Source of the DNA: Planctomycetota bacterium
GTDB taxonomy: Bacteria > Planctomycetota > Phycisphaerae > UBA1845
Assembly (NCBI GenBank): GCA_022562105.1
Contig: JADFPW010000004.1
Coordinates: 1-32,682 of the forward strand
DNA: 32,682 nucleotides
Reading direction: 5' to 3'
Positions within the stretch are counted from its first letter, which is position 1, and the number at the start of each line of letters is the position of its first letter. Below the pieces are notes generated by a model. It was not told the origin of the DNA. It was given only the letters and a program-made list of their open reading frames with translations, and ran no database searches. Positions 9,375 to 24,950 of the stretch are shown here, in pieces. The translations under genes and the position numbers were made by a program.

Positions 9375-11222
9375 CTAGCGGCGCATCGCGGCAGCGCGTT
9401 CCGCCCGAGGCTTCGGTGTCTTGTAGGTGGTGATTTGATCGACGTGCCAACTCGTCCCGTCGAAGGTGGTTACCGATGACGACGAACTCAGGAAGTCGAC
9501 CCCGGACAGGACGTTGAAGATGCGCCTCATGATGTTGAACATGGCGGCGGGCGCCGCCGCCTCTTCCGGCATCTGGGCGATCACCGCCCCACTGAGGGCC
9601 CCGAACAGATAAGCCATCGCCCCGAGTTCCTCCCCGAATGTGGTCAGGTCGCTAAACGATGCGGCGTACGCCGGCCCGCTGGGGACCAATCCTTCATGTT
9701 GGAAGCGCTTGCTGGCCACGATGCTGGGCGCTCCCCGGCTGGTGGCCAGGCACTCGTTAACCGCCTCGGCGGACGTGCCCACCATGAGCCAATCTTCGTA
9801 CACGCCCCACACCGGCACGATTTGCATTATTAACTGCAATTGCACATTACGCACCACTTGGAATCCGTCGGCGTCCACCTCGGTCGCCGGATCTGTGCCC
9901 TGGAGCAACAGCGGAAACTTCCGGCCGAGGTAGTCAAGAGCGGCATTGATCTTCTGGGCGGCCAAACGCGGATCACGCACCCGGATCATCAGAACACCGC
10001 TCACGCCTTGGCCGCCGGACGGTGGAAGCCGGACGCTGATGGCCTCGCCGCTCAACCAGCTCAGCAGATCGCGTTCAACATGAAACCCCCACTCTTTCTG
10101 ACTTCGCTCCCATTCGGCCAGCCGATTCGCTCCGTCCGGTACGTTGGTGGCGATAAAACCGAGCGCACCATGGTAGATCTCCCCCAGGTCGAGCCCGGCC
10201 GACACGCTGAAGCTGACCGCCCGTTGGGGAACAAACCTATCGAACCTGGCAAACGGTTTGCGAGAGGTCATCGCCCGAGCCAACGGCTTGGAAGCTGCAT
10301 CCGGTTGAAGCTTGATCACCGTCGTGACGCGCTGCCGGTAGCCCTGCGTGGATTCCGAAGCCACGATGTATTCGATGATGTTGAGATTTTCGATGGCCGA
10401 CTGCAGCATGGCCAATCCACGGGGATGCTCCGCCCGGGTATCCGGCGGCCTCATCATGTGCGGAAAGGTCTGGAGTCCTCGAAACAATTCACCCATGTCG
10501 AAGAACGAAATACTGTCTTGGGGGGTCGGCACTTGTCGCATCGCCTGGCGGAAGTGCGGCGCGTCGATCACCGCGCGCGTGGTTCCCTCGCCCGCGAGCA
10601 AGCCTGTGACCTGTTCGAGCGACTTCGCCCCGACCACCAACCCTACCACGTCACCGTGATGCAACAAGTGAATACCGAACATCCCCTCGCCGTCGGAGAG
10701 CGTCGAGACGGGCACGCCATGAACCGTGTGCTCAACGACACGCGCCTCACCGAACATCGCCGCCAATTCAACCAAGATCGCGCGCAACGCTTCAGCATGG
10801 GATGAAGCGGTTCCCAAGTTGGGACGCGTCAGCAGAATCAAGTCCGGGAACGGGGCGGACAGGCGTTCGGCGAAAGCAGTCTCTTGATTGAACAGGGCCG
10901 ACCAGTCGACCTTGGAGCCCAGCGCCAGGACGCGACTCCACCCCTCCTCGGTCTCAGCTCGCCGTTGAGGATCGTCAATAGAGGTGAGCAGCAGCTCCTT
11001 AAGATCCTCGATGATGCCGCTTTGAAAGAAATCCTCCCAGACGCCACTCCAATACTCGTAGATGAATTCACTGTTGGGATTGGCAACGCCATGGGCGTAC
11101 ATCCAAACGTCGGCTGGAAGATAGCGGCCCAGCGTGTACTGCTCCGGCAGCGGATCAGCCCCGACGGGCGCACTGCTCACCAGCACCAGTAGACAAATCC
11201 ACCGCAGGCGAGCCCAGATCAC
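9375..11222 (-). CDS. Secreted protein of unknown function
   Basis: Signal peptide VIWARLRWICLLVLVSSAPVGA. GTG start at 11222 supported by alignment with the duplicated leader of the 18071-19267 gene. ORF track starts at 11264. Confidence 0.75.
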   Translation of the reverse strand: MIWARLRWICLLVLVSSAPVGADPLPEQYTLGRYLPADVWMYAHGVANPNSEFIYEYWSGVWEDFFQSGIIEDLKELLLTSIDDPQRRAETEEGWSRVLALGSKVDWSALFNQETAFAERLSAPFPDLILLTRPNLGTASSHAEALRAILVELAAMFGEARVVEHTVHGVPVSTLSDGEGMFGIHLLHHGDVVGLVVGAKSLEQVTGLLAGEGTTRAVIDAPHFRQAMRQVPTPQDSISFFDMGELFRGLQTFPHMMRPPDTRAEHPRGLAMLQSAIENLNIIEYIVASESTQGYRQRVTTVIKLQPDAASKPLARAMTSRKPFARFDRFVPQRAVSFSVSAGLDLGEIYHGALGFIATNVPDGANRLAEWERSQKEWGFHVERDLLSWLSGEAISVRLPPSGGQGVSGVLMIRVRDPRLAAQKINAALDYLGRKFPLLLQGTDPATEVDADGFQVVRNVQLQLIMQIVPVWGVYEDWLMVGTSAEAVNECLATSRGAPSIVASKRFQHEGLVPSGPAYAASFSDLTTFGEELGAMAYLFGALSGAVIAQMPEEAAAPAAMFNIMRRIFNVLSGVDFLSSSSSVTTFDGTSWHVDQITTYKTPKPRAERAAAMRR

Positions 11223-11529
11223 GATTCCGATTCTCCTCATTCGACGCTCAAACACACCACCCATTTGAGCATACTCGTGGGCTCGGCCGACGGCTAGTAC
11301 GACTTTGTAGCAGTTGTCCGAACTTGTCCCGGCTAGCCCAATGGCTCGCTCCGAAGCGACCTCGCCCCGAGCTCAACACCCGCTACACCACCCGCTTGGG
11401 CGGTTGCGCCGGCATGGGCTCATCACCGAAGCGAATGGTGAGTTGAGACGGCTGCCGGGTAGGGGTGCCAATGGCGCCGGAACGCTTACCGACCTAATTC
11501 ATGATGGCTAGAGATTCTTCCTGACACCG
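11190..11529. repeat. Duplicated leader/signal-peptide segment, copy A
   Basis: Co-linear with 19232-19565: shared 'ccgcag..agcccagatca', 'attctcctcattcgacgctca', 'gtccgaacttgtcccgg', 'gcgaat', 'attcttcctgayacc'. Confidence 0.75.
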
Positions 11530-11568
11530 TTACTCTCGTGACTCTCACCGTAACTTCTCATGACAACT

Positions 11569-14298
11569 CTATTCGTCTCTGACTATGCTCATCTTGTTAC
11601 TCTTCGCGTCTCCTGCCGGCAACGCCAAACTTTCCTCGTCGGCCGCGGCGCCTGATTCCGTGAGCAACTCGGCCAGGACGGACTTGGCTTGTGCAGCTGC
11701 TGGGTTACTGGTCTCCGACATCGAAGAGGCGTCGGCGATGCTCGCCCGCAGACAGGCTTCCGCCAAAGCAGGTCGCTGTAACTCCTTCAATGCATACCCG
11801 TAATTGTAAAGAAATCGAATGTGGTCCGGGTGGTCCGCCGCCATCTGATCGGCGGTTTGCATGAGCAATTCGTTGGCCGCAACAGTGGCGTCCGCCCGGC
11901 CGCGATTGGCCAGTTGGACCTCGAACTCACGCACCACGGCAACCACACTGTCGTGCTGATTGGGGCTGGCGGCGCGCAGGCGCGTCTCTACACTGCGCTG
12001 GTGATAGCGCAGGCCGTCTTCATCCTGCTGCAGCGCATAGCAGGCCTCGTAAAGAGCCGTAACCGCCTTTTCCGCATAGAAGTGGTTTTCGCCCAGGCTG
12101 CGGCTGAAACCTTCGTACGCCGTCAGCAGATATGGCTTGGCCTGCTCGTGGTCCTGGAGACTAGCGAGGCATACGCCGTATCCATAATGCGCGAACGCCA
12201 CCTGCCAATGATCGGAGGGAAGCGCCTCCTCGACCAGTGCGACGAGTTCCGCATAGAGCGGTGCAGCCTCGCGGTGCTTTTTGAGGCTGGTCAGTAACGA
12301 GGCCATGTTATTCAGTGCAGCCAGATTGGCGGGGTGCGAAGTCGGGTAGCTGCTGCGGCTGATCTCGAGCAGTTCGGCCAAGACCACCTCCGTTTCGGCC
12401 AGTTTGTTCTGGGCCTGGAGGCATCCGGACAGCGAGGTCATCGTCGCCAGGGTCATTTCGTTGTCACGTCCCAATAGGCGCCGCTGAGCGGCCAGCGTTT
12501 CTCGCAGAAGCGGCTCGGCTTGTGCGTGTTTGCCTTGCGACTGCAGGACATCGCCAAGGAGCTGCCGCATCTTGAGCGTAAGCGTGTGGCTTGGTCCGAG
12601 CACCGTCTCGCATCGTTCGAGGGTGTCGCTCAACAAGGGTAGGGCTTCGTCCAGCCGGTCCTGATCCTCTAGCGTGATGGCCAGCGCACCAGCAGTCTGG
12701 AGCGTCTCCTCCGCGTTCGGGCCAAGACGGCGCTGACGAATCGTCAGCGCCTTTTGCAGCTCGGTGGTGGCTACGTCGAGAATGCCCAACGATAGATAGA
12801 CATCGCCGATGGCGTGTCGCACGGCCGCTTCGAGTTCCGGCTGGTTTTCAAAGCGTTCGTCCACGCGCCCACGCGCGTACTCCAAGGCCTCGGCAATGGT
12901 CACTTTGTAACCCTCGCGCTCCTGGGTAGCACTGCCGATCATGTCCTCGATCAAGAATTGGTTTATCGCCTCGGCTTGAGCATAGGATCTGCGGGCTTCG
13001 TCGCGGGCGTCCTTGGCTATGTCGCGCTCACGGGTGGCCACCAGCGCGAACCAGGAAGTCCCGACCAAGCCAAGCACCAAGGCAGCCAATGTACCCACCA
13101 GGCCGCCCACCAGCGCCCGATTACGCCGGGCGAATTTGCGCAGCTGGTAGGTCGCGCTTGGAGGGCGGGCGACGATGGGTTCGTCGCGCAAATAGCGGCG
13201 CAGATCCTCGGCCAATTCTCCGGCCGACTGGTAGCGGCGATTGCATTCCTTCTCCAGCGCCTTGGCGGTGATGGTCTCGAGGTCGCCGCGCAGCAGCGGA
13301 TCGATCGAGCTTAGTCGCGACGGCGTGTCCTGCTGGATGATTCGTACGGCTTCCGGAAGCGACCGACTCCGCACATCGTGCGGTAGCCGCCGGCCCAGCA
13401 ACTCGTAGAGAATCACGCCGATGGCGTATACGTCGGAACGGGTATCGAGTTTGTCGGGGTCACCGGCGACTTGCTCCGGGCTCATGTAGGGAATCGTGCC
13501 GACGAGCTGGGCTGCATCCGTCAACCTGGTGATCGTCTCGACATCCGCATCCACGAACCGGGCCACCCCGAAATCGAGGATCTTGGGCTCGCCGGATGCG
13601 TCCACGAGTATATTGCCGGGCTTGAGATCGCGGTGAATTACGCCCTTCTGGTGGGCGTGTTGGACGGCGTCGCAAATCTTGACGATCAATTCCAGGCGTT
13701 GCGGAATCCCCAAGTCGTGCTGCTTGGCGTAATCCGTCAGCGGGCGACCCTCTATGTACTCCAAGGCGAGAAACGGTTTGGCGACGGGCTCGGACGTGCC
13801 GTCCGATTCGACTGTTCCCAGACCGGCTTCATAGATGTGCGCGATTCCGGGGTGCTGGAGCTGCCCCAACGCGTTCGCTTCGTATTGAAAGCGCTGGATC
13901 GCACGCGGCGATATCAGATCGGGCCGTATGACCTTGAGCGCCACCTTTCTCTGTGGGTTGGACTGGCGCGCTTCATAAACGGTGCCCATGCCGCCCGTGC
14001 CGAGAACACGGATGATGCGATAGGCTCCGATCCTCGTGGGCAGGATCACGTCCTGCGGCAAGGTGTTGACCGCTCGAACCTGTTCGTCCAACTGGGTAAG
14101 CCCGTCACGAACGTTCAGGCCTGGAACCGCCTCAAGGTCGAGGGTGCGCTGATCGCCGGCGAGCAGCGCTTCCACTGCGGACCTGCGATCGGCATCGTCA
14201 CCGCACATCTCGTCGAGAAATGCGGGGCGTTCAGTGGGAACAAGTTTCAGAGCCTCCAGAAACATCGCCCCGACTCGTTCGTGTTGCTCTGGTGTCAC
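11569..14298 (-). CDS. Ser/Thr protein kinase (Hanks type) with TM segment and C-terminal TPR repeats
   Basis: YRIIRVLGTGGMGTVYEARQ..VALKVI, GVIHRDLKPGNILVD, DFGVARF, GTIPYMSPEQVAG; TM ALVGGLVGTLAALVLGLVG; TPRs. GTG start at 14298 overlaps the sigma-factor stop (GTGA). Confidence 0.93.
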   Translation of the reverse strand: MTPEQHERVGAMFLEALKLVPTERPAFLDEMCGDDADRRSAVEALLAGDQRTLDLEAVPGLNVRDGLTQLDEQVRAVNTLPQDVILPTRIGAYRIIRVLGTGGMGTVYEARQSNPQRKVALKVIRPDLISPRAIQRFQYEANALGQLQHPGIAHIYEAGLGTVESDGTSEPVAKPFLALEYIEGRPLTDYAKQHDLGIPQRLELIVKICDAVQHAHQKGVIHRDLKPGNILVDASGEPKILDFGVARFVDADVETITRLTDAAQLVGTIPYMSPEQVAGDPDKLDTRSDVYAIGVILYELLGRRLPHDVRSRSLPEAVRIIQQDTPSRLSSIDPLLRGDLETITAKALEKECNRRYQSAGELAEDLRRYLRDEPIVARPPSATYQLRKFARRNRALVGGLVGTLAALVLGLVGTSWFALVATRERDIAKDARDEARRSYAQAEAINQFLIEDMIGSATQEREGYKVTIAEALEYARGRVDERFENQPELEAAVRHAIGDVYLSLGILDVATTELQKALTIRQRRLGPNAEETLQTAGALAITLEDQDRLDEALPLLSDTLERCETVLGPSHTLTLKMRQLLGDVLQSQGKHAQAEPLLRETLAAQRRLLGRDNEMTLATMTSLSGCLQAQNKLAETEVVLAELLEISRSSYPTSHPANLAALNNMASLLTSLKKHREAAPLYAELVALVEEALPSDHWQVAFAHYGYGVCLASLQDHEQAKPYLLTAYEGFSRSLGENHFYAEKAVTALYEACYALQQDEDGLRYHQRSVETRLRAASPNQHDSVVAVVREFEVQLANRGRADATVAANELLMQTADQMAADHPDHIRFLYNYGYALKELQRPALAEACLRASIADASSMSETSNPAAAQAKSVLAELLTESGAAADEESLALPAGDAKSNKMSIVRDE

Positions 14299-14876
14299 GG
14301 CTGGTCTTCGCTCGCCAGTTCCTGGGCCAGCCACGCCCGTGCGATCCTCCATTCCCCCTTGACTGTCGTTAGCCCAACGCCAAGGATCTCCGCCGATTCT
14401 TCCAGTGTCAGACCTCCAAAGAATCGCAGCTCGACCAGCTTGGCTTGACGCTCACTCAATTCGGCGAGGCGTTCCAGCGCCTCTTCCAGCACCAGCACGT
14501 CAACGACGCGTTCCTCGGCCAGAGCCACCGCCTCGTCCAGCGTGACCTGTGACCAGTCGCCCCCACCACGCTTCGCCGCCCGGCGATCGCGGGCATGGTT
14601 GATCAGCAGGCGTCGCATGGCCCGGGCGGCGACGGCCATGAAATGGGCGCGTCCCTTCCACTCGGTGGCTCCGGCGCCAGCCAATCGGATGTACGCCTCG
14701 TGCACCAAGGCAGTGGGCTGGAGCGTGTGGTTGGCCCGCTCTGCGCTCATGAGATTGCCGGCCACCGCCCGCAGTTCCTCGTATACCAGTGGAAGCAGCC
14801 GGGACGCCGCCGAATCGTCTCCGGCGACCATTTCGCCCAGAATCTGGGTAACCTGATTTGGATCCTTGTTGTCCAC
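14295..14876 (-). CDS. ECF-type RNA polymerase sigma factor
   Basis: MDNKDPNQVTQILGEMVAGDDSAASRLLPLVYEELRAVAGNLMSAERANHTLQPTALVHEAYIRL...LSERQAKLVELRFFGGLTLEESAEILGVGLTTVKGEWRIARAWL; resembles the planctomycete TIGR02999-type family. Confidence 0.93.
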   Translation of the reverse strand: MDNKDPNQVTQILGEMVAGDDSAASRLLPLVYEELRAVAGNLMSAERANHTLQPTALVHEAYIRLAGAGATEWKGRAHFMAVAARAMRRLLINHARDRRAAKRGGGDWSQVTLDEAVALAEERVVDVLVLEEALERLAELSERQAKLVELRFFGGLTLEESAEILGVGLTTVKGEWRIARAWLAQELASEDQP

Positions 14877-14896
14877 GAAACCGGCCTCTAGGCACC

Positions 14897-14924
14897 ATTA
14901 TACGCGTCTGTCTCGCCCTCACAA
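14897..14924 (-). promoter_or_regulatory. Candidate sigma70-type promoter for the ECF sigma/kinase operon
   Basis: Minus strand TTGTGA (14924-14919) - N16 - TATAAT (14902-14897), 20 nt upstream of the ATG at 14876. Confidence 0.5.
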
Positions 14925-15066
14925 CAACAACCCGGACAAGCCGACCGCGCCGGCGTCTTTCCGTGCAGTTAGTCGTGAGGGGTTTTGACGTGAAAAAGAA
15001 AGACGCCAGCGGCTACTCGTTGCCCGTTCGCGTTCTTACGGGACTGACCAGAAAGGGCCAATTGTG

Positions 15067-16371
15067 ATGAAGAGAGGAATTATCGTGAGGAAAAGCAAAG
15101 TTACAGCAGTATCGTTGGCTACGGCGTTGAGCCCGCTTTGGGGTATCGCCGCGTGGCTGGCCGGGCCGCTCCCCGCCCCGGCCGACGAGGTGCCCTTCAC
15201 CGAGATCGAGCTCTCCGCCCCCGCAGGCCCTAGGGACGTTTATGCGGCAGACCTGGACGGCGATGGCGACATCGACATCCTTTTTGCGTCTTCGGTACCG
15301 GGTAACCACAAGATCGGGTGGTACCAGAGCAACGGCGGCTTGCCCGTGACCTTCACCGGCGAGATCGTCATCTCGACCACCGCCCTCGACGTCACTTCTG
15401 TTTTCGCTGCGGACGTGGACGGCGACGGGAACACCGACGTCCTCTCCGCGTCACCGGGCGACCACAAAATCGCGTGGTATAAAAACGACGGCGCCCTTTT
15501 CCCGCCGACCTTCACGGAGCAGGTAATCTCGACCAACGCCCTCGGAGCGCGGTCCGTTTTCGCCGCGGACTTGGATGGCGACGGTGACATCGACGTCCTC
15601 TCCGCATCAGATATTGACAGCAAGCTCGCGTGGTACGAGAACGACGGCGAGTCGCCCCCATCTTTCACCGAGCGGGTAATCGCGACCGACATAATTCCCT
15701 TCGGCCCCCGGTCCCTGTTCGCGACAGATCTGGACGGCGACGGTGACATCGACGTCCTCACCGCGTCACTGGGCACCGCTGCTGCCCCCGGGACCGCGTG
15801 GTACGAGAACGACGGCGAGTCGTCCCCGAACTTCACGAAGCGGGTGATCACCTCGACCCGCGCCATCTCAGTTTACGCGGCGGACATGGATCGCGATGGG
15901 CATATCGACATCCTCTCGGGGTCAAATTCCCTTGGCGGGATTAAATGGCACGAAAATGACGGGGACTCCCCTCCGACCTTCACCGAGCACCCGATCGCGC
16001 CGAACAACGATTACATCCCCACAAGCATGTTCACGATGGATATGGACCTTGACGGGGACACCGACGTCCTCGTCGCGACACTATCCGCCCACTTCGTGTG
16101 GTACGATAGCAGCGGCGGCTTTCCCCCGACATTCATCGAGAGGGATTTGGTGAGTCATGCGTCGACTGACGAATCCGCCTTCGGGGCGGACTTGGACGGC
16201 GACGGGGACATCGATGTCCTCTGGGCCGGGAAAGTCTTCACCGAACGCTTCGCCAAGATCAAAATGTACATTAACTTGCTGCCGCGCACCGCCGGCGACA
16301 TGGACCGCGACGGCGACGTGGACCTGCAGGACTACGCGCTGTTCCAGGAGGTCTTCACGGGTCCGTTTTAG
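15067..16371 (+). CDS. FG-GAP/VCBS repeat surface protein, seven repeats, dockerin-like C-terminus (paralogue 1)
   Basis: Signal peptide; repeats of SVFAADLDGDGDIDVLSAS..KIAWYENDG..PPTFTERVIST; C-terminal GDMDRDGDVDLQDYALFQEVFTGPF. ATG 15067 aligns with ATG 16641 of the paralogue. Confidence 0.9.
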   Translation: MKRGIIVRKSKVTAVSLATALSPLWGIAAWLAGPLPAPADEVPFTEIELSAPAGPRDVYAADLDGDGDIDILFASSVPGNHKIGWYQSNGGLPVTFTGEIVISTTALDVTSVFAADVDGDGNTDVLSASPGDHKIAWYKNDGALFPPTFTEQVISTNALGARSVFAADLDGDGDIDVLSASDIDSKLAWYENDGESPPSFTERVIATDIIPFGPRSLFATDLDGDGDIDVLTASLGTAAAPGTAWYENDGESSPNFTKRVITSTRAISVYAADMDRDGHIDILSGSNSLGGIKWHENDGDSPPTFTEHPIAPNNDYIPTSMFTMDMDLDGDTDVLVATLSAHFVWYDSSGGFPPTFIERDLVSHASTDESAFGADLDGDGDIDVLWAGKVFTERFAKIKMYINLLPRTAGDMDRDGDVDLQDYALFQEVFTGPF

Positions 16372-16414
16372 AACACATGGGCATCCGACGGACGTCCCTC
16401 TAGCAGCCCGTTGA

Positions 16415-16451: not shown

Positions 16452-16465
16452 CTCACGGGCGACTG

Positions 16466-17937
16466 GGCACCATCATGCGCGTTCCTCTCGCCTTCACAAT
16501 AAAAACCCGGGCAAGCCGACCGCGCCGCAGACTTTCCGTGCAATTGGTCATGTGGGGTATTGACGAGACAAGGAAGGCGCCGGCGGCTTCTCGTCGCCCG
16601 TGCGCGTTTTTTCGGGGTTCACCAGAAAGGGACGATTAAGATGAGAATAGGAATGGTCGTGAAACATCACAGGGTTACCGCAGTATCGCTCGCTGCGGCG
16701 CTGAGCCCGGTTGCAGGTATCGCCGCGTGGCTGGCTGGGCCGCTCCCCGCCACAGGAGGGGAGGTGCCCTTCAACGAGCACGTGCTGTCCGACACCGCTG
16801 ACGGACCGCGGTCTGTTTTCGCGGCGGACTTGGACGGCGACGGGGATCTCGACATCCTCACCGCGTCAGAGTTCGACAACAAGATCGCGTGGTACCAAAG
16901 CAACGGCGGCTTACCCGTGACCTTCACCGACGAGATTGTGATCTCGACCGCCGCGATTGGCGCCTGGTCTGTTTTCGCGATGGACGTGGACGGCGACGGG
17001 GACACCGACGTCCTTTCCGCGTCAGACGGTGACAACAAGATTGCGTGGTACGAAAACGACGGCGCCTTGTTCCCGACCTTCACCGAGCGGGTGATCTCGA
17101 CCGACGCCCTCGGGGCGCACTCCGTTTTCGCCGCGGACCTGGACGGCGACGGGGACACCGACGTCCTCTCGGGTTCGCTGTCTGACACCAAGGTCGCGTG
17201 GTACGAGAACGACGGCCAGTCGCCCCCGACCTTCACCGAGCATGTGCTCTCGACCGACACCACTGCCTTTGGTTCCCGATCCGTCTTGGCGACGGATTTG
17301 GATGGCGACGGCGACATCGACGTCCTCTCCACCTCCTTCGCCGGCGAGATCGCATGGTACGAAAACGACGGCGGTTCGCCCCCGACCTTCACCGAGCGGG
17401 TGATCTCGACGACCGCCAGTGGAGGCAGCGGCCTATGCGCCACGGACCTGGACGGCGACGGGAATATCGACGTCCTCTCCGCGGCTGCTGCGATTGCGTG
17501 GTACGAAAGCGACGGCGGCTCGCCTCCGACGTTCACCAAGCGAGTGATCGTGTCGGATGTCGGATTTGTTCTTTCCGTTTTCGCCGCGGATGTGGACAAC
17601 GATGGAGATATCGACGTCCTCTCCGCGACATTCGGTCACAATAACCTCGTGTGGTACGAGAGCAGCGGCGGCTCTCCCCCGACCTGGCAGGAGCGGGTGA
17701 TCTCGACCGATTCAAACCTCGGCTTTTCTGTTTTCGCGGTGGACTTGGACGGCGACGCGGACCCCGAAATCCTCCACGTGGGAGACACACTTGGCGGCAG
17801 CAAGCTCATGTGGTACGAGAACGTGATGCAGCACGCCGACCTCGACGCCGATGGCGACGTGGACCTGCACGACTTCGCTCTGTTGCAGCTGGCCTTCACC
17901 GGCCCGAAGTAGAATACATGGGCACCCGACGTCCCAT
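16466..17937. repeat. Tandem duplication unit, copy 2
   Basis: See copy 1 (14891-16398). Confidence 0.85.
16641..17912 (+). CDS. FG-GAP/VCBS repeat surface protein, seven repeats, dockerin-like C-terminus (paralogue 2)
   Basis: MRIGMVVKHHRVTAVSLAAALSPVAGIAAWLAGPLPATGGEVPFNEHVL aligns with paralogue 1 (KVTAVSLATALSPLWGIAAWLAGPLPAPADEVPFTEIEL); C-terminal DLDADGDVDLHDFALLQLAFTGPK. ATG 16641 preferred to 16560. Confidence 0.9.
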   Translation: MRIGMVVKHHRVTAVSLAAALSPVAGIAAWLAGPLPATGGEVPFNEHVLSDTADGPRSVFAADLDGDGDLDILTASEFDNKIAWYQSNGGLPVTFTDEIVISTAAIGAWSVFAMDVDGDGDTDVLSASDGDNKIAWYENDGALFPTFTERVISTDALGAHSVFAADLDGDGDTDVLSGSLSDTKVAWYENDGQSPPTFTEHVLSTDTTAFGSRSVLATDLDGDGDIDVLSTSFAGEIAWYENDGGSPPTFTERVISTTASGGSGLCATDLDGDGNIDVLSAAAAIAWYESDGGSPPTFTKRVIVSDVGFVLSVFAADVDNDGDIDVLSATFGHNNLVWYESSGGSPPTWQERVISTDSNLGFSVFAVDLDGDADPEILHVGDTLGGSKLMWYENVMQHADLDADGDVDLHDFALLQLAFTGPK

Positions 17938-18070: not shown

Positions 18071-19267
18071 CTACTTCTCGCCGCGTCGGGTCGCGGAAAA
18101 CCCGGATTGCTCAATCGCCGCGATCAACACTTTGGGTTTGACGCTGCTGGCCGGGTCGATGGCCACGCGTGCTTCACTCGCGTCGAAATCGACCATGACG
18201 CGCTCCACGCCGGGAAGATACAACACCGACAACGCAAGCTTGGTTGGGCAATCGGGGCAGCGCATTCCCTCGATGTCCAACACGATCACCTCACCGCTGA
18301 TGGGGCCGAGCCGAGGGTCCAGATCGAGCAGGGAGACGGCTGGGTTGTTGGTCCCGGAGATGCCGAATCCGACTGCGCCAGGGAAACCGGGGATCTGTTG
18401 ACGGGTAGCCACGATTTTCCGGTAGCCGGCCAGGGTGCATTGACCGAGCGAGCCGGCCTTTGCGCACTCGCCGCATTGTGCGAGCGCCGGCAGACTCGGA
18501 TCGTTGGCGGCGGCTACGCTCCGAGCGGCGCTGACCATTGCGTTGGTCGCACGCTTAGCCGACGCGATTTTCTGCTTGCTGGGTGGTGATTCGATGGCCG
18601 GCTCAAAGCCCAGATCGGACATGGCGTCATACAGACCCACCACCAGGGGATGTCCGCCACGCTCTCGGGCCGGATCAGCAGCCGAACCGAGTTGGTGCAT
18701 CCAGTCCGTCGGTTTGGGTGGGTAATCGACCCATAGCTGCTGTGGCGTGGCCGCGTAGAGCAAGTACATGTCCCAGGCCGGTGGTTCCTCCAAGAGCCCC
18801 TTGGCGAACGCATCGCCCGCCAGGCGGTTCGGATCGTGGAATTGACGCACCCGCGGATCATCGAAGATGCCAGCCACTCGCTGCGCCGCTGCGTAGTCGT
18901 CGCTGGGCAGGATATCGATCCACACGACGAAGATGCTGACCTCAGCGGAGGGATACGCCCTCACCACCGACTCATTGACCGCAATGGCACCCGCAACACA
19001 AGCCCCGCACGTGGCTGAAACGATCGCCACCACCCGCGGCCTGTCTCGATCCGTGTTGAATCGTTCGATCAGGGGTTCGAGCGAGTTGTCGAGTGAAATC
19101 ATCCCCCCGTCGTCGCGGATCGCCGGCTCATCCGAAAGGGTCGCCACACGAGTTGATGATCCACAGCCGAGTGTGGCCGTGAACCAGATAGCCATGAGAC
19201 CGACGCGTACGCCGGGAAGACGATGGATCAGCAGACACAGCCGCCGCAGACCAGCCCAGATCATCAT
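18071..19267 (-). CDS. Lipoprotein with thioredoxin-like region (CGAC) and C-terminal heavy-metal-associated domain
   Basis: Lipobox ATLGC; RVVAIVSATCGACVAGAIAV; central CGECAKAGSLGQC; C-terminal VIVLDIEGMRCPDCPTKLALSVLYLPGVERVMVDFDASEARV (HMA GMxCxxC). Confidence 0.8.
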   Translation of the reverse strand: MMIWAGLRRLCLLIHRLPGVRVGLMAIWFTATLGCGSSTRVATLSDEPAIRDDGGMISLDNSLEPLIERFNTDRDRPRVVAIVSATCGACVAGAIAVNESVVRAYPSAEVSIFVVWIDILPSDDYAAAQRVAGIFDDPRVRQFHDPNRLAGDAFAKGLLEEPPAWDMYLLYAATPQQLWVDYPPKPTDWMHQLGSAADPARERGGHPLVVGLYDAMSDLGFEPAIESPPSKQKIASAKRATNAMVSAARSVAAANDPSLPALAQCGECAKAGSLGQCTLAGYRKIVATRQQIPGFPGAVGFGISGTNNPAVSLLDLDPRLGPISGEVIVLDIEGMRCPDCPTKLALSVLYLPGVERVMVDFDASEARVAIDPASSVKPKVLIAAIEQSGFSATRRGEK

Positions 19268-19565
19268 TGCATTCTCCTCATTCGACGCTCAGACGCACGA
19301 GCCTCTTGAGCGTACCTCCCGCCCAGACCAGAAACCAGCCCAACGACGCCGCCGGATGTCCGAACTTGTCCCGGGCGGGTGTAGCTACGGCCAAGGGCAC
19401 CTTCGAGTGTCGCCGGCAGGTCCATGCACCGCCCGACTTAGCCTTCTTCGTCGGCGAAGCGAATCGCCAGGTGGGTTCGCTGGCTGGTGGAGGTGCCCGA
19501 AGTTGTCAGAACGCCTACCGAGGCGGTTCATGGTTCAAGGAATTCTTCCTGATACCTTTGCTTCC
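19232..19565. repeat. Duplicated leader/signal-peptide segment, copy B
   Basis: Co-linear with 11190-11529. Confidence 0.75.
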
Positions 19566-19690
19566 CCTTGCTTGTCGGGCACCGAATCACCAGCTGGTTT
19601 CGCCGGCTGGTAGAGGTGCCACGCGTATCAGACCGCCTACCGACGCGGTTCATAGTGTCAAGAAACTCTTCCTGACACCTTTTCCTCCCC
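19460..19690. repeat. Two direct repeats, about 105 bp each at 123-bp spacing
   Basis: 'cgaatcgccaggtgggttcgctggctggtggaggtgcc..tcagaacgcctaccgaggcggttcatggttcaaggaattcttcctgatacc' (from 19460) versus 'cgaatcaccagctggtttcgccggctggtagaggtgcc..tcagaccgcctaccgacgcggttcatagtgtcaagaaactcttcctgacacc' (from 19583). Divergent third copy at 11432-11529. Confidence 0.85.
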
Positions 19691-19699
19691 TTTTCCTCC

Positions 19700-20470
19700 C
19701 GGCGCGCAAGAGGAGTTGATCGCACGAAGGGATTCTCCGTTGTGCGGGCTGGTCGCGAGATTGATACCGGATATTTCGGAATAAAGGAGAAGGGTTTTCG
19801 CTGGGAGGATGCTTGGTGGGGGTGCGAGATATGCTTTGAGCCGGAACTCGACGAAGAATTTGGTGTGACACACACAAAGCAGACCATAGACCTGAGCGAA
19901 CGCATCCGAGAAACCATAGGCAAGGAGATGAAGGCGAATATCAGAACGCTCTGTACCACGATCGTTGCACGCGGCAAGAAGCGCCATGCGGTCAGCACCA
20001 AGGAAGCTGAGACCATCGCCAAAGAAAAGGACCGCTTCCTTAGGACAACGCCTACAATCAGGGACAAAGACGAGGAGACCATTACTCGTGAGCTACAAGA
20101 ATATGGCGAGCAAAGGGCGACCGACGAGCGCCCGGCCCAGAGAGTCGTAGAGGACATCAAGGACCTACCCTTCGTCATCGACTTTGAGTCGCTCCCCGGC
20201 GCTCCGTTCTACCGAGTGCGTACATTCGGCAAGACGGTCGTCGTGTCGATTAACCGGGACCACACTTTCTACGACAAGCTCTATCAGCCGCTGGCCGAGA
20301 TTGATCCAACCGCGAAGACGGCGATCGAGCTGCTGATCTTTGCCTTCGGGAAGGCCGAAACCCTCGCCGGAGATGAGGGCAAGGACTGGTACAACTCGCA
20401 ACGTGCGGAATGGAGCCGCATACTGGGTGTGTACTTGGATGCCGTCCCTTCGTTGAAGGGCGTCGCCTGA
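19700..20470 (+). pseudogene. C-terminal fragment of an Hsp90/MORC-like (GHKL) ATP-binding protein
   Basis: In-frame extension upstream of the ORF-track start gives ..GVDRTKGFSVVRAGREIDTGYFGIKEKGFRWEDAWWGCEICFEPELDEEFGVTHTKQ, resembling the middle/C-terminal part of HATPase_c_3-type proteins. The N-terminal ATPase region is absent and the frame is closed by TGA at 19673-19675. Confidence 0.5.
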
Positions 20471-24643: not shown

Positions 24644-24723
24644 TCGATCCGGAATGCAGGGCCCGGGTGGTGACAGACCGGCCGCGGTGTAGGCGTGCGG
24701 TGGTTGGATCGTGCTACGCTGCG

Positions 24724-24891
24724 CGCCGGGTGCCACTGGTGGCTTGCCCACCAGTGTTGTCCGCCAGTAGCGCTGCATCATGCAATCCAAGGCCGGGAGC
24801 TATCGTCTCGATCATCAGGCTCCCTACATTGTGGGTGCTGAGGCTCACTCTGCTACTGCACTGGTGGGCAAGCCACCAGTGGCACCCGGCG
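24724..24891. repeat. MITE/BIME-like element, perfect 33-bp terminal inverted repeats, nested hairpin arms
   Basis: CGCCGGGTGCCACTGGTGGCTTGCCCACCAGTG (24724-24756) is the exact reverse complement of CACTGGTGGGCAAGCCACCAGTGGCACCCGGCG (24859-24891). Each arm contains CACTGGTGG-CTTGC-CCACCAGTG. Confidence 0.92.
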
Positions 24892-24950
24892 AGCGAGGGG
24901 AAACAGCGAAATTCGCGTGGACCCACCAACGCGATTAATCTGTCATCAGC

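Follow-up and report, generated by a model that had tools for sequence, protein, structure and literature searches.

How did two genes whose products are unrelated come to begin with the same leader? The question is raised by a pair of minus-strand planctomycete genes, one for a secreted protein (gene A) and the other for a lipoprotein (gene B). The stretch of DNA analyzed here, which we call the window, comprises 32,682 nucleotides (positions 1 to 32,682, forward strand, of JADFPW010000004.1 in assembly GCA_022562105.1). It corresponds to contig C76 in the 4.19 Mb draft genome (MAG) of a Planctomycetota bacterium (Phycisphaerae, UBA1845), which is 79% complete with about 5% contamination. A first-pass annotation had described the shared region as an expression and secretion cassette captured by two different genes. 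Our analysis agrees that a duplicated expression leader precedes two unrelated exported proteins, but it assigns different roles to the two genes, with gene A as the owner and gene B alone as the captor. In the reading that we consider very probable, the leader, with its putative promoter, was captured from the resident gene A by gene B, which is itself probably foreign. The positions of the features are given in Table 1.

Table 1. Genes, leaders and leader segments in the window, with the basis of each assignment
Feature	Position	Strand	Basis
Gene A, DUF3352-type secreted protein, GTG start preferred	9375..11222	-	Pfam PF11832
Leader A (probable donor), non-coding leader plus first ~12 codons of gene A	11187..11534	-	71% identical to leader B; ownership by signal-peptide comparison
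Island 2 in leader A, TGAGCGTCGAATGAGGAGAAT, 3' arm of hairpin plus Shine-Dalgarno	11230..11250	-	21/21 identical to leader B
Island 1 in leader A, CCGGGACAAGTTCGGACA, candidate promoter/operator core	11315..11332	-	18/18 identical to leader B
5' unit of leader A, starting with the GGTGTCAGGAAG repeat	11426..11534	-	Three-way alignment
Ser/Thr kinase-TPR gene directly upstream of leader A	11569..14352	-	Pfam
Gene B, lipoprotein with thioredoxin-like CxxC region, C-terminal HMA and probably captured N-terminal extension	18071..19267	-	PF00403; lipobox; relatives
Leader B (probable captured copy), leader plus 11 codons, in-frame fusion to gene B	19229..19562	-	Missing in six gene B relatives
CTG (Leu12) at the fusion point, where the relatives have their native ATG	19232..19234	-	Alignment of relatives
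11 probably captured codons, MMIWAGLRRLC, at start of gene B	19235..19267	-	Homologous to gene A codons; none in relatives
Island 2 in leader B	19271..19291	-	21/21 identical to leader A
Island 1 in leader B	19357..19374	-	18/18 identical to leader A
5' unit of leader B, starting with GGTATCAGGAAG	19454..19562	-	Three-way alignment
Third copy of 5' unit, just upstream of leader B	19569..19684	-	Best-preserved hairpins, z -3.9

The window contains several other repeats. Two units of about 1.5 kb (14880-16390 and 16455-17931) form a tandem duplication that includes both upstream and downstream flanks, and they encode FG-GAP/VCBS-repeat proteins with dockerin-like ends. Near-perfect inverted repeats with arms of 36 nt and 34 nt (97% complementary) occur at 24721-24894 and 865-959, and are possibly small mobile repeats or strong terminators. 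In addition, a Ser/Thr kinase-TPR gene, which precedes gene A in the window, is also found upstream of gene B in three loci of another lineage, the one that contains the close relatives of gene B (L126, 4055-5017; L129, 1193-2155; L130, 4832-7072).

The best local alignment of the two leaders pairs positions 11534-11187 with positions 19562-19229 and contains 228 identical bases among 320 aligned (71%) and 42 gap columns. The two copies thus lie upstream of both genes where they had been reported, on the minus strand. The alignment score of 91 is far above the scores of 2000 dinucleotide shuffles (mean 19.1, sd 2.4, maximum 34), a comparison that the first-pass annotation had itself proposed. 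Judged from this alignment, leaders A and B are a duplication, and since 29% of the aligned positions differ between the copies, with many indels besides, an assembly duplicate is excluded. Both leaders contain ATTCTCCTCATTCGACGCTCA (21/21) and GTCCGAACTTGTCCCGG (17/17, within an 18-base identical run) exactly, and the end ...ATTCTTCCTGAYACC is present in both. A 1-nt indel ahead of the start codon had been taken to mean that the non-coding part is the conserved unit and that gene A starts at GTG 11222. The non-coding part is indeed conserved, but so is the coding side, where 33 of 42 bases are identical. The GTG start is plausible, as it aligns with the second ATG of gene B and GAGGAG is common to both; however, the indel argument is not decisive because gene A offers two further in-frame ATGs, at positions 11240 and 11264. 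The gene B ATG that matches 11240 meets a stop after 5 codons.

The duplication is restricted to these two places. The 21-mer occurs twice in the draft genome, with up to 3 mismatches allowed, and the genes downstream of the two sites are A and B; the full leader likewise occupies two places genome-wide, 8 kb apart on one strand. The leader core is found in 0 of 50 other genomes of the family, and its block has zero exact matches among the GTDB contigs searched. A dispersed cassette was rejected after the 21-mer and the full leader had been sought in the genome, the family and the GTDB contigs, with two copies only.

These counts also bear on the idea of two separate insertions, one ahead of each gene, by a mobile element or dispersed repeat that brought a promoter and a start codon with it. 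Each leader begins with a dispersed repeat of the GGTGTCAGGAAG type, which is also present in other genomes of the order, and a third copy of the 5' unit exists; these observations are what such insertions would leave. However, the full leader is confined to two same-strand sites and its core is missing from the rest of the family, the 3' end of the leader sits within native signal-peptide codons of gene A, and terminal inverted repeats are not seen. We consider independent insertion very improbable.

Only the 5'-most ~110 nt of the leader exists as a third copy. The dispersed repeat itself, AAGGTGTCAGGAAG, has 11 sites in the genome against 0 for the reversed control, namely 11517-11530, 19545-19558, 19668-19681 and eight others, and similar copies are found in other genomes of the order. 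It is usually preceded by a direct doublet of 9-12 nt whose sequence is site-specific (GGCAGATAAGG twice, GGAGGAAAAGG twice). Y1 transposases are present in the genome, and the GGTGTCAGG motif is absent from the 1.5 kb flanks of all Y1 loci, which were checked as possible RAYT neighbors. The situation thus resembles REP/REPIN elements with RAYT (Y1) transposases in that a short dispersed palindromic repeat, here the first bases of the leaders, occurs together with Y1 transposases, but it differs in that the leader is not dispersed and the Y1 loci lack the motif within their 1.5 kb flanks. A plus-strand ORF (19742-20470; GC 0.56 versus ~0.62) adjoins the third copy of the 5' unit; it has no match in NCBIfam or PADLOC, and looks like the remnant of an inserted gene.

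The proteins encoded downstream were said to be unrelated in their mature parts, and this is correct: the gene A and gene B proteins share nothing past the first ~14 codons. An ordinary gene duplication followed by extreme divergence of the mature parts would explain why the start codons and leaders align without a break. It is already contradicted, and has practically no probability left, because A/B similarity ends at codon 14, each gene has its own distinct family of orthologs, and the relatives of gene B do not have the leader.

A search of 100 genomes of the family and order gives matches to gene A in 90. Its orthologs in the family have a single signal peptide of equal length in an equal place, and gene A keeps their single-h-region layout and the distance to the FTLGRY motif. 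Its identity to family-mates (32-38%) is comparable to that of the family-mates among themselves (median 36%). By signal-peptide and ortholog comparison, gene A is the resident gene and the owner of the leader. In the synteny comparison its neighbors are not shared with relatives, so the insertion is not datable from context.

The 5' end of gene B is different. When GTDB contigs were scanned with gene B, eight loci in Planctomycetota MAGs were obtained (71-77% identical). Six Planctomycetota loci reach the 5' end of the gene, and these have 72-77% amino acid identity to the window and a different 5' end. The six relatives start with M(L/V)IHR, which aligns to window residues 12-16, and have an AGGAG-type or AAGGA-type site upstream of this start; at the DNA level the start reads ATG-(C/G)TG-AT(C/T)-CAT in the relatives and CTG-CTG-ATC-CAT, at 19234, in the window. 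For each of these six loci the DNA match to the window begins at 19233, where identity drops from about 80% to background; the ungapped identity is 74-87% immediately past the native ATG, 74-92% downstream of it in all, and 10-40%, which is background, upstream of it. The A/B leader homology stops abruptly at gene B codon 11-12 (19234), and the two breakpoints coincide. At the fusion point the window has TGTC joined to TGCTGATC, the relatives have GACCATGCTGATC and gene A has TGTCTACTGGTG; the join is in frame, with at most 1-3 bases of common sequence. In this alignment, the ancestral start of gene B, Met1, is now Leu12.

The lipobox Cys lies 24 residues from the start in the six relatives and in the distant ortholog of the family-mate genome G045, and 35 residues from it in the window. 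Since G045 and the six relatives have this native length in common, the window form of gene B is the derived one. After the 11 captured residues, gene B still has its native lipoprotein signal in full (LIHRLPGVRVGLMAIWFTATLGC); its gain would therefore consist of expression signals and an n-terminal extension only; the term secretion cassette does not apply to gene B.

Gene B relatives include L062, L065, L068, L069, L070 and L072. Several gene B relatives have an in-frame TGA (SPT-TGA-GGC) in place of the first cysteine codon of the CxxC, which fits a thioredoxin-like family with a selenocysteine UxxC. Cys occupies this position in the window, in G045 and in the six close relatives.

The native start of the relatives, together with the placement of the gene A n-region in its only signal peptide at the ortholog position, argues that A is the donor and B the recipient. 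The reverse direction, in which A took the leader from B or a third gene supplied both, gains something from the fact that the genomes compared include no same-genus outgroup for leader A. We nevertheless regard it as very improbable: the 11 codons of B are additional to an already complete signal peptide, with a native start that six relatives retain, whereas those of A form the n-region of its sole signal peptide, in the family's standard position.

Where gene B came from is a separate problem. Gene B is 73-78% identical to genes of the other lineage mentioned above but 45% identical to that of the family-mate G045. Its Ks to that lineage is 0.35-0.50, and the spread within the lineage is 0.27-0.47. 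When ~0.5 Mb of this genome was compared with a sample of like size from genome G114, gene B ranked first in similarity among the 43 reciprocal best hits, with 77% identity against a median of 37%. Gene A was found in none of the seven genomes searched of the other lineage. As gene B of that lineage is far closer than gene B of the family-mates, and gene A was not found there, it is likely that gene B entered by horizontal transfer from another planctomycete group. Where rpoB was found, the other lineage forms its own clade (100/100) outside the family of the window; rpoB of the draft genome itself was not found, and the place of the genome outside the other lineage rests on its family label, gene A and the reciprocal best hits with G114. 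With this caveat about rpoB, the history of gene B disagrees with that of the genome.

Alternatively, the same leader capture may have taken place with gene B inherited vertically, if the contig belongs to, or was mis-binned from, a lineage near the seven genomes in which gene A has been lost; no transfer would then be needed. The contamination of the draft, the unrecovered rpoB and the GC content of gene B (0.63, which does not stand out) are compatible with this. On the other hand, gene A is as close to its family-mates as these are to each other, all seven genomes of the other lineage lack it, and the other window genes with a best match in the G114 sample are only ~30% identical to it. We consider vertical descent unlikely, and retain transfer as the preferred origin. 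Note that the divergence of the two leaders (JC 0.36) is comparable in magnitude to the gene B Ks, so that the capture may date from near the acquisition; it is possible that it occurred around the time of gene B's arrival, although this dating is rough, as rates differ.

The locus, then, has homologous upstream regions before non-homologous genes, recipient orthologs without that region, and a native donor that retains its own copy of the leader. As for the capture itself, a second, diverged copy of the leader and first 11 codons of gene A has replaced the leader, ribosome-binding site and ATG of gene B in frame, and the horizontally arrived gene would thereby have been put under resident expression signals. 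Less certainly, the join would have arisen through illegitimate recombination that duplicated in tandem the ~8 kb stretching from gene B to leader A, after which the upstream repeat was lost and the leader alone was kept; a deletion between GGTGTCAGGAAG-type repeats could have trimmed the duplicate. The layout, with B upstream of A on the same strand, fits a tandem duplication with loss of the upstream repeat. Upstream of leader B, neither the kinase gene nor the VCBS gene has left a recognizable duplicate, and the homology is that of the leader and 5' unit only; the tandem-duplication route is thus conjectural, and its remnant could have been deleted. At present, transcription of both genes would begin at putative sister promoters, the hairpin/GAGGAG region common to the two would serve as their translation start, and we infer that proteins A and B are co-expressed. 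The gene B product would be a lipoprotein precursor with an n-region longer by 11 residues, processed at its own lipobox.

Within the diverged leaders, two islands are perfectly kept, separated by 64 bases in A and 65 bases in B. Island 1 (CCGGGACAAGTTCGGACA) has no exact copies genome-wide other than these two. Island 2 carries the GAGGAG ribosome-binding site in both leaders, and its hairpin has a predicted energy of -12.2 kcal/mol in leader A and -16.8 kcal/mol in leader B. When the same matches are placed at random, the longest run is reached in 4% and the second longest in 0.9% of shuffles; the two runs are a moderate sign of constraint, and suggest that the captured piece includes a candidate promoter. 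Scans with sigma70-type consensus sequences give no coding-strand promoter in leader A or leader B. As a regulon operator, island 1 was rejected: one more weak site (2 mismatches) was found, which is not above the control. A riboswitch or other structured RNA was also rejected, since Rfam has 0 matches within the window and the proximal leader folds no better than its shuffles (z-scores near zero). From the islands one may derive a further reading, which we offer tentatively and regard as rather doubtful: the foreign gene B, encoding a lipoprotein that handles thiols or metals, joined the regulon of a resident envelope protein through the operator CCGGGACAAGTTCGGACA and the common hairpin start, the capture being adaptive and co-expression still selected. 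It is based on both elements being unchanged in a leader that has otherwise diverged by roughly a third.

Taken by its sequence, the feature belongs to the established class of promoter or leader capture, and its natural junction is unusually clear. Transferred genes can be activated when illegitimate recombination produces a tandem duplication through which they capture a promoter (PMC11111574, citing Li and Bock 2019), and an earlier case cited in the same article concerns the his genes in Salmonella (Anderson and Roth 1978). As the E. coli experiments are presented in that article, a resident promoter region was likewise joined to another gene by illegitimate recombination of the duplication type and the donor copy was retained, as it is here, where the recipient is probably foreign. 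Unlike those experiments, the event described here is old and natural, the leaders having diverged by 29%, and the translation start and 11 signal-peptide codons came along with the transferred piece, whose promoter is putative. Our literature search found nothing close to a natural capture of a leader plus signal peptide in bacteria.

Promoter propagation by putative mobile promoters has reportedly been described by Matus-Garcia et al. in 2012 (NAR 40:10032). The likeness is that homologous upstream regions precede non-homologous genes in one genome. In the present case, however, there are two copies, there is no sign of autonomous mobility, and the homology reaches into coding sequence.

Promoter capture has been proposed as a main way in which silent foreign genes become active, and the well-resolved cases in the literature searched come from laboratory selection. 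The present locus would provide a natural case at base resolution, with the donor 8 kb away and the ancestral start of the recipient visible in six relatives. In addition, the diverged sister leaders may serve as an internal footprint of the bases that are kept in a planctomycete expression signal.
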